From a virus, in IMG/VR virus record IMGVR_UViG_3300042197_004918, positions 1-64,000 of that record: a stretch of DNA of 64,000 nucleotides; one strand, written 5' to 3'. This document shows positions 7,200 through 12,726 of the stretch, piece after piece (positions within the stretch are counted from its first letter, which is position 1; the number at the start of each line of letters is the position of its first letter). The notes below the pieces were generated by a model. That model saw only the letters and a list, made by a program, of their open reading frames with translations. It had not been told where the DNA came from and made no database searches. A program made the translations under genes and the position numbers.

Positions 7200-7694
7200 A
7201 TGGCTGACTTACTACAATCAAACGAGATCTTCTACTCAAGTTTTGAGCCGAAGGTTCAGAACAGATTTATCATGTATCTCGACGGAATCCCATCATTCCT
7301 AATCAAGAAGTGTGACCGACCAAAGCCAAACTCCGTGAAGAAAGTTTTGGACCATATCAATCTCCAGCGTTACTACAAGGGTAAGACCGTATGGGACCCA
7401 ATCACCATCGCTCTCTACGACCCAATCGCTCCGTCCGGTGCTCAAGCAGTCATGGAATGGGTTCGCTTACACCACGAGTCAGTGACCGGTCGCGACGGAT
7501 ATGCCGATTTCTACAAGAAGGATGTCACCATCAATGTGTTAGGCCCAGTCGGAGACAAGGTCGAGGAATGGACGCTCAAGGGCGCATGGATCAGCGGAGC
7601 CACAAACTTCGGAACACTGGAATGGTCAAACGACGGCGACCATATTCCGATTGAAATGGAACTCACTTACGATTACGCAATTTTACAGTTCTAA
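7200..7694 (+). CDS. Tail tube protein, gp19-like
   Basis: 164 aa, the size of T4 gp19 (163 aa). The fold is recognised from NRFIMYLDGIPSFLIKKCDRP, the loop LQRYYKGKTVWDPITIALYDP, and the C-terminal strands GAWISGATNFGTLEWSNDGD ... MELTYDYA. It forms the inner tail tube within the sheath. It has its own late-like motif, a Shine-Dalgarno and a terminator, fitting a high-copy virion protein. Codon use is more C-rich at third positions than in its neighbours, as expected for high expression. Confidence 0.93.
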   Translation: MADLLQSNEIFYSSFEPKVQNRFIMYLDGIPSFLIKKCDRPKPNSVKKVLDHINLQRYYKGKTVWDPITIALYDPIAPSGAQAVMEWVRLHHESVTGRDGYADFYKKDVTINVLGPVGDKVEEWTLKGAWISGATNFGTLEWSNDGDHIPIEMELTYDYAILQF

Positions 7695-8198: not shown

Positions 8199-9068
8199 AT
8201 GAAAGTCTTTGCTATATACCCAGGTCGATTCCACCCTTTTCATAAAGGGCATAAAGGTGTATACGATTGGTTATCTGCAAAATTCGGACAAGAATCGGTT
8301 TACATTACAATGACTGGAGTTACCGACCCAATAAAATCTCCGTTCACATTTGAGGAACGGAAGAAGATGGTTGGGTTGACCGGTGTAGACCCGACCCATG
8401 TAATTCAAGTCACAAATAATTACAATTTAGCTCCTCTTGTAAATCAGTTACCGATTGACATCAACAAGGACGCAATATTCTTCACCGTATCACAGAAGGA
8501 TATGTCTGACGACCCACGATTTAAAAGTTTCACCAAGAAAGACGGTTCTCCATCATACCTTCAGCTTCTACCCAAGGATTCAAAGGAAATCAAACCCGCG
8601 ATAACACATGGGTATTTAATTGTGGCTCCAACGACTACATTTAAGGTTTTAGGTAAAGACGCAAGTTCTGCATCTGAACTCAGGAGCGACTTCATCGGAC
8701 TAGACGATGAGAGTAAAAAGAGGTTTGTGACAGACTTGTTCGGTAAATTCGATCAAGAGGTTTACGACATTATGAACAGTAAATTAAACCGTCAACTTAA
8801 AGAGATGATTAAGCGGATAATAAAGGAAGACTTCGACTCCGATATATTGGGCCTTACCAAGAAACGGGATACGATGGATTACGAAATTGAGAAACTACGT
8901 CTCAAGAAATCTCTCCTTGCAATGAAAACTCATGTTGAAAACATGAAAACGATAGAACAGAATGGTGGGGATATAGAGAATGCAAAGAAACAGTTGGATG
9001 CCATGAAAAAAGATGTGGATGTTGCTAAGAAGAGGGTATCTGCTGCGGGAATAAAACGGACTGCTTAA
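8199..9068 (+). CDS. HxGH nucleotidyltransferase with C-terminal tag and coiled coil
   Basis: 289 aa, starting 2 bases after the previous stop. Residues 1-~190 are a cytidylyltransferase/NMNAT-like Rossmann domain: IYPGRFHPFHKGHKGV (HxGH at 15-18) and SASELRSDF near 158-165 in place of the usual ISSTxIR. Such enzymes transfer a nucleotide to a phosphate or phosphorylated cofactor. Residues 200-210 (LKEMIKRIIKE) repeat the tag of the previous gene, and 213-289 is a long charged coiled coil. Enzyme plus structural-looking tail suggests a virion-associated enzyme; that is inference. Confidence 0.7.
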   Translation: MKVFAIYPGRFHPFHKGHKGVYDWLSAKFGQESVYITMTGVTDPIKSPFTFEERKKMVGLTGVDPTHVIQVTNNYNLAPLVNQLPIDINKDAIFFTVSQKDMSDDPRFKSFTKKDGSPSYLQLLPKDSKEIKPAITHGYLIVAPTTTFKVLGKDASSASELRSDFIGLDDESKKRFVTDLFGKFDQEVYDIMNSKLNRQLKEMIKRIIKEDFDSDILGLTKKRDTMDYEIEKLRLKKSLLAMKTHVENMKTIEQNGGDIENAKKQLDAMKKDVDVAKKRVSAAGIKRTA

Positions 9069-9123: not shown

Positions 9124-9972
9124 ATGGATAACACCGACCAAACAATCTCTATTAAGAGGCCAGTTTCAACCAACGACAACGCAGTTAAACTTGCTCCGAA
9201 ACAATCGGAAAAACCCAAGTATCCTTCCGAAGTCATAGGGCTTCCAAGCGACGGATACTTCTATTCCGATTCGACGCCGTTACAACAAGGAACGGTCGAG
9301 ATAAAGTATATGACTGCCCGCGAGGAAGATATACTTACTTCTCAGAACCTAATCAAAAAAGGTGTAGTGTTGGAAAAACTTCTTGAGAGCCTCATTTTAT
9401 CTCCGGGCGTAAAAGTTGACGACCTCTTGATTGGTGACAAAAATGCTTTGTTCATCGCATCCAGACGATTGGCTTACGGTGATAGTTACGGCCCGCTCGA
9501 CATGAAGTGTCCTAAGTGTGGCAAGGATAATAAGTGCACGATTGACTTATCACTGATTAAGAACAAGGAATTTGATTTTTCAAAATACGAAAAGGGGACA
9601 AATCGGTTTGAATTTAAATTGCCTGCGAGTAAGAAGGTTGTCACATACAAACTCTTGACTCATAAGGATGAACAGTCTATTGAACAGGAGATAGCCAGTG
9701 TTAATAAGGCCACAAAATCAGGAACTTCTCCAGAAGTAACCACTCGTCTAAAGAGGATGATAACCGCTATAGATGGTGACGATGACCGCCAAACAATCAT
9801 CAAGTTTATCGACACAGAACTTCTATCCCGTGACAGTTTAGCGTTAAGGAATCAAGTTAAAGATAATACACCGGATATTGACATGGCTTTCGATTTTGTT
9901 TGTTCCGAGTGTTCTCACGAAGAAAGAGTGGGTGTGCCGATGGAGGTATCTTTCTTTTGGCCTAACACCTGA
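9124..9972 (+). CDS. Baseplate hub/tail chaperone protein, gp26-like, zinc-binding
   Basis: 282 aa. The core GLPSDGYFYSDS followed by VEIKYMTAREEDILTSQNLI and LLESLI is typical of the T4 base plate protein family that includes gp26. Two CxxC pairs (C129/C132 in CPKCGKDNKC and C260/C263 in CSECSHEE) suggest a bound zinc. It lies two reading frames before the tape measure gene, the place where tail assembly chaperones are found in other phages. The zero-frame product ends FFWPNT, but a TTTT run at 9955-9958 probably lets some ribosomes move into the next frame. Confidence 0.75.
   Translation: MDNTDQTISIKRPVSTNDNAVKLAPKQSEKPKYPSEVIGLPSDGYFYSDSTPLQQGTVEIKYMTAREEDILTSQNLIKKGVVLEKLLESLILSPGVKVDDLLIGDKNALFIASRRLAYGDSYGPLDMKCPKCGKDNKCTIDLSLIKNKEFDFSKYEKGTNRFEFKLPASKKVVTYKLLTHKDEQSIEQEIASVNKATKSGTSPEVTTRLKRMITAIDGDDDRQTIIKFIDTELLSRDSLALRNQVKDNTPDIDMAFDFVCSECSHEERVGVPMEVSFFWPNT
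9952..9960 (+). promoter_or_regulatory. Putative +1 ribosomal frameshift site (TTC TTT TGG)
   Basis: The codons are TTC TTT TGG CCT AAC ACC TGA. tRNA-Phe on TTT (9955-9957) can slip one base onto TTT (9956-9958) with full pairing. The next codon is then GGC, leading into the frame of 9959-10168. That frame has no convincing start of its own: upstream of the shift it only reads a shadow of the gp26-like gene. A -2 shift gives the same frame. Confidence 0.55.
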
Positions 9973-10168
9973 ATACCAAGTAGCCCTTCATAAACAAATC
10001 TTTGAACTGAGTTATTTCAGCCAAGGTGCGGTAAATGTGTCCATCGCCTACGATATACCCATCCACCTTAGAAACTTCTATTACAAGCAGTTGTCAGAGA
10101 TTAAAACCAGAGAAAATAAGCAATCTCAACCGGAACCCTCAAGCAAGAAGATTGCTAGACCGTTTTAA
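9959..10168 (+). CDS. Frameshift extension of the gp26-like protein (69 aa)
   Basis: This is the part read after the proposed shift: GLTPEYQVALHKQIFELSYF ... HLRNFYYKQLSEIKTRE. It is an ordinary helical protein segment with a basic tail (SSKKIARPF). The fused product would be about 347 aa. The only alternative start is GTG 9932, which would add unlikely residues (CRWRYLS). It ends 80 bases before the tape measure ATG. The arrangement matches the G/GT tail-chaperone pattern of lambda-type phages. Confidence 0.6.
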   Translation, partial: GLTPEYQVALHKQIFELSYFSQGAVNVSIAYDIPIHLRNFYYKQLSEIKTRENKQSQPEPSSKKIARPF

Positions 10169-10248: not shown

Positions 10249-12726
10249 ATGGCAGACACCGCAACAGATACAGAGAAAAGTTCAGCAAAGACAGCTGAAC
10301 ACATTAATAAACAACGTGAAGCCATGCGCGATGTGGTTGATATGGCACGGAGGCTCTCTGTAGAATACGATGAACACACCGGAGCAGTCGGTTCCATAGT
10401 CAAAGATTTAACCAAGATAGAAAAACTTCAAGCACATATAAAGAACTTAGCATCCGAATCAAGGTCTATTGAGCTAAATATGGCAAATATCTTCAGAGAT
10501 CAAGTTTCTCTTGAGAAAGATTCTGACAATAGTTTACAGAATTCGATTAGTTTACGAACAAAGATATTGGATATTGAGGATAAAATATCGAAAGCGAAGT
10601 CAAAAGAAGCTAAAAAACTCGGAAAGGATAAAGTTGATTTAGAGAAACGACTCACCACGGAGAATTTGTATAGAAAGAATATAGAAGAAAGAATAAAGTT
10701 GAATTTAAAAGAATTTAATAACTCTAAGGAAATGCTAGAAAACGGCCGTCGCGAAACATCAATCCTTGATAAGAAATTAAATAATCATAAACTCATAAAA
10801 ACTGTTTCGGAGAAGATTGGAATTTCCACGGCTATAAACACCTTCAAGACCGGCGCGTGGATTAAACTTTTAGAAGAAGCTTGGCAGATTTTTAGAAAAA
10901 TGGACGATGCTTTATTCTCTGTTAGAAAACATTTAGGAACATTTCGTGGTGAATCTAAGGAAATAGAAAACACAACAAAATCGCTGGCGATGGATTTCGC
11001 AGGAGTGGGTGTGACGTTTGAGATAGCAGCGACCACAATGAATTCGATTGTAGATGACTTTGGCAGACTGTCATCGCATACGAAAAACATGGCTGCCACG
11101 GTAGCCACGTTTTCATCACAACTCGGAATCTCGGAGAAAACATCCACCGGGCTATTGAAAAATCTGGCTCAAGTTTCGGGAAAAACATCAGACTCAATGG
11201 AGGGTATGATAGGATTTACAAAGTCTCTGTCAAACGCAGCGGGTGTATCTTTACCAAAGGTTATGGAAGATATAGCCGGCGCATCAGATTCCGTCCGAGC
11301 AAATTTTCGTGGAAACACAACGGAACTAATCAAGGCCACCGTCGAAGCCAGGAGACTCGGATTGAGCCTTGAAAGCATGGGAAAAACTTCGGAATCACTC
11401 CTAGACTTCAACTCATCTGTAAATGCGGAAATGGAGGCAAGCGTTTTGTTAGGAAAAAACTTAAATCTCAATGCTGCTCGCAGAGCAGCATTCAGCGGTG
11501 ACTTGGTTAAACAAAATGAGGAAATTCTCAAAGTTTTAAAATCCGTAGGAGATTTTGAGAAATTGAATGCGTTCCAGAAAAAATCCTTGGCAGCAGCTTT
11601 AGGGAAGAGTGTAGAAGAACTACAGTCTATGAACCAACGAGAACAAGAAAGATTGTGGATTCTACAAAAGGGAACTAAAGAACAGAAGCAATTATTGGCT
11701 GACTATGAAAAGCAAAAGAAGCTCCGAGAGGGGGAGGCTAAAGATCTAGGAAAGATAGCAGAAGATCGGATTAAGCAGGAAAATCACCAGCAAAGGGTAA
11801 ACGCTTTACAACAACAGTTTCATAAATTGATAATGGAACTGTCGGGGCCAATACTAGATGCGATTGAACCGTTAATGGCACTCGCGGTTAAATGGATGCC
11901 TACGATATTTGAAGGATTTTCTAAACTGTTAATTCCCGCGACAATCTTATTTACGGTTTTTAAGTTAATATCCAGTCCAATAGACACCATTCTTTTGAAA
12001 TTGATGATGTGGAGCAAATATTTTGACAAGTTTATGTTATTTGTCGGAAATCTAGCCAGCCGCATGGCTTTTCTTGGGAAAGCTGTGGCATGGGTCGCCA
12101 CGGTATTCGGTAAGTGGCTGAACCCTATAGGATGGGTAATAACAGCATTTCAATTAATATACAGTTTATTTAAGAGGTTCTCAGATATAGAATTCGTTAA
12201 AGGAGACTGGACTGGAAATATATGGAAAGGTATCGAAGCAATAGGTGGTGCTTTATATGACACTTTAATAAAGCCGTTTGTTGACGTATACGACTGGATA
12301 AAAAAGAAGTTAATGGGGAATTCTCCATCCGAAATAGGAACCGGAATAGTAAACGGTTTAATTGCGGTAGGTTCCATGATATTGAAGGCACTGACATATC
12401 CATTCACATCCGCATTCACATTTATAACCGAACTGTTCGGAAAAATTCCTGAATTTATAACAAGCGTCTTTAAACGTGGTTTTGATTTCGTGACCAAACT
12501 TCCTGGGATGGGGTTGTTGACTAAAGCGATAGACACTTTCAGTGGAAATAAAACTGCGGATGTAAATCAGAAGGTTGAAACCGTCCAAACAAAACAAGAC
12601 GACACCAACCGACTAATTTTGGAAAAGTTAACAGAACTAACAAACTTGATGAAATCCGGTGGAATCGCAATTAATATGGATGGAAGACGTGTTAGTGAAG
12701 CACTAGCACACGCATCCTCACGATAA
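10249..12726 (+). CDS. Tape measure protein
   Basis: 825 aa. Residues 1-~190 are strongly coiled-coil. A middle region (~220-480) resembles tape measure helical domains (KTSTGLLKNLAQVSGK, SLSNAAGVSLPKVMEDIAGA). Residues ~545-740 hold several hydrophobic helices (PATILFTVFKLI, LGKAVAWVATVFGKWLNPIGWVI). The C-terminus has a short coil and GGIAINMDGRRVSEAL, common at tape measure ends. It sets tail length and is ejected with the DNA. Position after the chaperone and before LysM/hub genes supports this. Functionally equivalent to T4 gp29, although shared ancestry is not visible. Confidence 0.85.
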   Translation: MADTATDTEKSSAKTAEHINKQREAMRDVVDMARRLSVEYDEHTGAVGSIVKDLTKIEKLQAHIKNLASESRSIELNMANIFRDQVSLEKDSDNSLQNSISLRTKILDIEDKISKAKSKEAKKLGKDKVDLEKRLTTENLYRKNIEERIKLNLKEFNNSKEMLENGRRETSILDKKLNNHKLIKTVSEKIGISTAINTFKTGAWIKLLEEAWQIFRKMDDALFSVRKHLGTFRGESKEIENTTKSLAMDFAGVGVTFEIAATTMNSIVDDFGRLSSHTKNMAATVATFSSQLGISEKTSTGLLKNLAQVSGKTSDSMEGMIGFTKSLSNAAGVSLPKVMEDIAGASDSVRANFRGNTTELIKATVEARRLGLSLESMGKTSESLLDFNSSVNAEMEASVLLGKNLNLNAARRAAFSGDLVKQNEEILKVLKSVGDFEKLNAFQKKSLAAALGKSVEELQSMNQREQERLWILQKGTKEQKQLLADYEKQKKLREGEAKDLGKIAEDRIKQENHQQRVNALQQQFHKLIMELSGPILDAIEPLMALAVKWMPTIFEGFSKLLIPATILFTVFKLISSPIDTILLKLMMWSKYFDKFMLFVGNLASRMAFLGKAVAWVATVFGKWLNPIGWVITAFQLIYSLFKRFSDIEFVKGDWTGNIWKGIEAIGGALYDTLIKPFVDVYDWIKKKLMGNSPSEIGTGIVNGLIAVGSMILKALTYPFTSAFTFITELFGKIPEFITSVFKRGFDFVTKLPGMGLLTKAIDTFSGNKTADVNQKVETVQTKQDDTNRLILEKLTELTNLMKSGGIAINMDGRRVSEALAHASSR

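Follow-up and report, generated by a model that had tools for sequence, protein, structure and literature searches.

A gp26-like tail chaperone gene of T4-like aquatic viruses is very probably extended by a conserved programmed +1 frameshift

In phage lambda, a single gene immediately upstream of the tape measure gene gives rise to a short (gpG) and a long (gpGT) tail assembly chaperone (TAC) through a -1 ribosomal frameshift, and this G-T frameshifting has been described as widely conserved "except T4" (Atkins et al. 2016, PMC5009743). Forward shifts have been proposed in other phage lineages: the myovirus HSTV-2 "very likely" uses +1 (Atkins et al. 2016, PMC5009743), and the forward-shift training cases of PRFect include actinobacteriophage tail chaperone genes (PMC10885494). 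For T4-like phages, the work of Vladimirov, Gautam and Davidson (2022) is cited by PRFect for a short gene with a fused long gene (PMC10885494) and by the Adele paper for poly-T -1 signals in genes of the short form, TAC-N (PMC12846349). Here, we analyzed a gp26-like open reading frame (ORF1) and an overlapping frame (ORF2) in the first 64,000 nucleotides (nt) of the 173,817-base IMG/VR virus record IMGVR_UViG_3300042197_004918 (hereafter, the window). ORF2 lies in the +1 frame of ORF1, and the two very probably form one gene with two protein products, in which a programmed +1 frameshift adds a G/GT-like extension to the chaperone. Frameshifted short and long chaperones are already known; their conserved +1 variant in T4-like phages looks new, and no description of a +1 chaperone frameshift in these phages was found in the literature searched, in which Vladimirov et al. 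2022 was covered through the papers citing it.

ORF1 (9124..9972; this and the window features written below with two dots are on the + strand) would encode the short chaperone, TAC-N, of 282 amino acids (aa). It matched the Pfam family T4_baseplate (PF12322) with 61.9 bits (curated cut-off 24.5) and also phrog_150 (baseplate hub). Its protein ends in GVPMEVSFFWPNT, the last residues being VSFFWPNT, followed by a TGA stop (9970..9972). Relative to ORF1, the +1 frame is open from 9848, after a TAA at 9845-9847, to a stop codon at 10166-10168, and its translation past the TTT_T at 9955-9958 begins with GLTPEYQVALHKQIFELSYFSQGAVNVSIAYDIPIHLRNFYYKQL. ORF2 itself (9959..10168; 69 aa plus stop) would extend the short form to a long form, TAC-NC, of ~347 aa. 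A preliminary description of this DNA, made from the letters alone, had noted the end of the gp26-like gene at FFWPNT, a second frame that continues as a normal protein from 9959 and the TTT-T at 9955-9958, all of which were confirmed. It had also seen no credible start for the second frame, and indeed a TTG at 9878 is the sole start codon listed for it 5' of the join, with no Shine-Dalgarno (SD) sequence seen before it on reading. The two overlapping frames sit between the tail tube gene and the tape measure gene, and a frameshift into the G/GT-like layout that it proposed for two overlapping frames before the tape measure remains the best explanation. As in lambda, a single gene directly ahead of the tape measure gene would give both a short and a long form, although lambda shifts -1 and the shift here would be +1 at UUU_Y. 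The record, which may be incomplete, holds one PF12322 copy and one ORF2 copy; a T4-like split into a short gene and a long gene was not seen in it.

IMG/VR searches with two queries, ORF1 and the gp26-like protein from Flavobacterium phage immuto, yielded 160 loci; immuto itself, Microcystis phage Mel-JY01 and others came from annotated phage records, and extra scans added one locus with SP-15 as query and none with XacN1. The clade holding the window and immuto (clade A) comprises 159 loci with enough sequence, grouped into 75 nucleotide clusters. At least 40 codons were open in the +1 frame from the ORF1 stop in 159/159 of these loci, and the same domain begins at the same point in that frame in all of them; the four clade A loci falling short are those whose sequence ends <100 nt past the ORF1 stop. 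The extension is kept in relatives down to ~44% ORF1 identity, and no clade A relative was found to encode a single continuous frame. The same +1 relation is present in the cultured phages immuto, Mel-JY01, SP-15, LIS04 and BRock, and no similar DNA was found in cultured phages. ORF2 has a median pairwise ratio of nonsynonymous to synonymous change (dN/dS) of 0.16 (312 pairs) and is under purifying selection.

The preliminary description had suggested conservation of the site in relatives as a check, and the site proved to be conserved. The shift span, from the last upstream +1 stop to the ORF1 stop, is as short as 23 nt (six clusters), and in 75/75 clusters it contains a UUU with U or C as the next base. 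The codon in the FF column of the FF[WY]P end is TTT in 74/75 clusters, and the proline codon that follows W/Y is invariably CCT (75/75), as would be expected of a codon read in both frames. Across the gene, synonymous change was lowest in the last seven ORF1 codons, at 0.33 of expectation. The site variants were TTTTTTTGG (26 clusters), TTTCTTTGG (24), TTTTTTTAC (20) and TTTCTATGG (2), with TTCTTTTGG (the window), TTTCTATTC and TTTCTTTAC seen once each. A T directly before the two slip codons occurs in 1/75 clusters, compared to 33.7 predicted from codon usage; this single cluster is the window, with TTC as its first slip codon, so that the -1 heptamer T_TTT_TTT is absent from 75/75. In bacteria, UUU_Ynn has been called particularly liable to +1 shifting (PMC5009743), and the window's slip site is UUU_U (9955..9958). 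A +1 slip of a single tRNA in the P site, as in Escherichia coli prfB, fits every variant, including the immuto site, which holds CUU_U plus UUU_C. Unlike prfB, the A-site codon is TGG, TAC or another sense codon and never a prfB-type stop, and the SD-like element is not at 3 nt (~25 nt in most relatives, 7 nt in the window).

The same frame could also be reached, with one extra residue, by a -2 slip such as the one that phage Mu uses, and the preliminary description had left +1 and -2 side by side. In relatives with TTT TTT T, tRNA-Phe could indeed re-pair two bases back. However, a -2 slip would put it on UCU in the window, with a mismatch in the middle position, whereas +1 puts it on UUU; good pairing after -2 is lacking in LR756508 as well (TTT CTA TTC), and the sole feature common to the 75 clusters, UUU_Y, suits +1. 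Of the two options in the earlier proposal, +1 is thus favored over -2, and we regard a -2 slip as very unlikely. Next in rank, and quite improbable too, is that ORF2 is a separate small gene translated by internal initiation, perhaps from the SD-like element. In 57/75 clusters the +1 frame has an ATG, GTG or TTG upstream of the join or shortly past it, which is compatible with this, as is a strong SD-like element upstream, yet 18 clusters have no canonical start there (seven of them no near-cognate start either) and the window has no credible one. In the six clusters in which a +1 stop lies at most 23 nt from the ORF1 stop, this stop separates the element from ORF2, so the element cannot start ORF2 there, and it is still present. 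Internal initiation would also leave the selection on the slip codons unexplained. Transcriptional slippage on the T run, dropping one U from some mRNAs, appears less credible still: seven T are found in 46/75 clusters, but ORF2 is equally conserved where the run is three T (28 clusters) or four T (the window), and with such short runs in 29 clusters slippage cannot be the general mechanism. Lastly, a sequencing or assembly error of one extra base, conceivable at a short homopolymer in metagenome data, is practically negligible, as 159/159 loci and the five cultured phages named above agree in the frame relation. Neither of the two outcomes that the preliminary description had named as refutations, such an error or a single continuous frame in relatives, holds in clade A.

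The sequences show a conserved +1 extension and slip site, selection acting on both frames, one copy in each genome record, a tail gene context and homology to T4 gp26/gp51. We infer that a +1 shift occurs, with an efficiency and a chaperone function as follows. Most ribosomes would terminate at the TGA at 9970 and release the 282-aa short chaperone, while a minority would pause with peptidyl-tRNA-Phe on UUU at 9955-9957. This tRNA would then move one base forward to UUU at 9956-9958, GGC would enter the A site, and the shifted ribosomes would translate to 10165 to give the ~347-aa fusion. If the two forms act like lambda gpG/gpGT, the tape measure protein would be coated by many copies of the short form and a few of the long one, whose extension would bring in tail tube subunits.

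Candidate stimulatory elements were found upstream of the slip site. In most clade A relatives an SD-like GGAGG element lies ~25 nt 5' of the slip codon. For 9-mers with their 3' end 24 nt before the slip codon, the mean anti-SD affinity was -8.75 kcal/mol compared to -4.68 kcal/mol after synonymous resampling, the largest excess of this kind in the gene. The codon at this element showed 0 synonymous changes against 31 expected, and the element is encoded by different amino acids per subclade (Glu-Glu, Gly-Gly). The window does not have it at this position; instead, a GGAGGU (9942..9947; anti-SD affinity -10.6 kcal/mol) ends 7 nt before the slip codon and is a possible stimulator. The GGAGG element (L082:3679-3685 and equivalents in most clade A loci) is also located 7-8 nt before a conserved isoleucine (ATH) codon in frame 0. 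A stimulator, a pause and a near-cognate internal start are candidate roles for the element at ~25 nt. Tentatively, and with more doubt than confidence, it could be an undescribed long-range 5' stimulator of the +1 shift (or start a third product at the conserved frame-0 isoleucine), the direction of the shift having changed within the family and the slip site and element spacing having changed to match. Both flanks of the slip site fold better than synonymous controls, which may merely reflect a higher G+C content there.

The same join is used differently elsewhere in the family. Besides clade A, SP-15, LIS04, GXN1 and BRock have the extension in +1, whereas it is in -1 in XacN1, RAS14, LR756511, 121Q, RaK2, GAP32, PA5oct, Atu_ph07, phiAS5, S-PM2 and P-SSM2; the -1 version thus occurs in the jumbo phages 121Q, PA5oct, Atu_ph07, RaK2, GAP32, RAS14 and XacN1 as well as in the Straboviridae phage phiAS5 (loci L276-L279, L281-L283 and L088). 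Cyanophages such as S-PM2 and P-SSM2 share the gene, the join and an extension homologous to ORF2, but their shift would be -1: in 38/38 clusters TTT TTC follows a codon with a final T (T_TTT_TTC) and the extension is in the -1 frame, with an SD-like element that ends 7-12 nt before the TTT codon. This spacing is close to that known to aid -1 shifting in dnaX. Annotations list the cyanophage extension as a gene of its own, the 57-aa gp51 (P-SSM2, L113:3218-3391; S-PM2, L114:3191-3364). In 82/82 IMG/VR and phage loci, a -1 shift at the T_TTT_TTC located four codons before the gp26 stop (TTT TTC GTA/GCA TAA) would fuse this gp51 to gp26. Small genes annotated as "hypothetical protein" in immuto (L082:3848-3958), SP-15 (L086:3794-3913), BRock (L089:3692-3874) and RAS14 (L283:1849-2016) probably represent C-terminal pieces of the frameshift extension.

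T4 represents the third arrangement. Its gp26 and gp51 both belong to PF12322, as does ORF1, and gp51 consists of PF12322 over about residues 1-201 plus a C-terminal part; as proposed here, the short protein stops at the shared join and the long one has the extra part, but T4 has two separate genes on opposite strands instead of one gene with a +1 extension. At the sequence level (L090:4803-6229), gp26 ends near the corresponding join with EFFELL-stop, compared to VFKLLVNPDE in gp51. It is as if a gene had been duplicated and one copy then fused. In HHalign comparisons, clade A ORF2 scored 27.7 against the cyanophage gp51 extension (shuffled maximum 18.2), which in turn scored 48.9 against the C-terminal part of T4 gp51 (shuffled maximum 16.3), and phrog_634 spans both of the latter. 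When the three states (+1, -1 and two genes) are placed on a tree built from the N-terminal domain, three changes are needed, compared to 14.8 after shuffling, and phiAS5 (-1) groups with T4 (support 83/81), with long branches leaving the deep joins unsure. The -1 arrangement in cyanophages, jumbo phages and phiAS5, together with the short and fused long genes of T4, marks the clade A locus as a probable short/long tail assembly chaperone system with a +1 shift. The earlier remark that T4 is not usually described in this way therefore holds for T4 itself, where gp26 is the short and gp51 the long form, and does not extend to the cyanophages, jumbo phages and phiAS5, which carry the -1 counterpart.

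For structure, ORF1 and ORF2 were modeled as two separate parts. The ORF1 model (AlphaFold2; per-residue confidence score, pLDDT, 86.7) matched gp26-like proteins in a viral library, for example that of SP-15 (E 7e-18), and the ORF2 model (pLDDT 82.5) consists of three helices. No significant match was obtained for ORF2 with Foldseek, no significant family was found for the window's ORF2 protein in Pfam, PHROGs or NCBIfam, and PDB sequence profiles gave no match.

Several observations weigh against this interpretation. The clade A clusters are not phylogenetically independent, and clustering reduces this dependence without removing it. A direct HHalign comparison of ORF2 with T4 gp51 scored 12.0, not above shuffles, so that the two are linked only through the cyanophage extension. 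Foldseek against the PDB gave top probabilities for ORF1 of 0.20 and 0.18 for the HK97 chaperone 2OB9 and 0.10 for YqbN 3KLU, none significant (all E >1), and the likeness of the model to solved chaperone folds is suggestive only. The SD-like element of most relatives, at ~25 nt, lies outside known stimulator spacings; to our knowledge, there is no precedent for this distance. Downstream of the slip site, the window showed no notable structure (z -0.48) and no Rfam match, and RNAalifold recovered no conserved fold except a weak upstream helix in the immuto subclade, with nothing conserved downstream.

Overall, +1 shifting seems to be in use across a large clade of T4-like aquatic viruses, where relatives use -1 and T4 two genes, i.e., three solutions at one join. 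This makes a switch between recoding directions testable within one family and provides a natural collection of varied UUU_Y +1 sites. Annotations of many environmental viruses and several cultured phages, which lack the extension or call it as a separate small gene, are corrected as well.

In the surrounding cluster, the tape measure gene that adjoins downstream (10249..12726) was identified by phrog_167 (E 6.6e-12) and phrog_991 (E 1.7e-10), and the upstream tail tube gene (7200..7694) by phrog_4542 (E 4.7e-21). No tRNA genes were found within the 64-kb window. Two further genes separate the tail tube gene from the chaperone gene, one of which (8199-9068) carries an N-terminal nucleotidyltransferase-like motif (YPGRFHPFHKGH) that is unusual for a tail gene cluster. 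ORF1 contains two CxxC motifs at residues 129-132 (CPKC) and 260-263 (CSEC), which suggests a zinc ribbon in this lineage; CxxC-like motifs are present in T4 gp26 too, and many clade A relatives have none.
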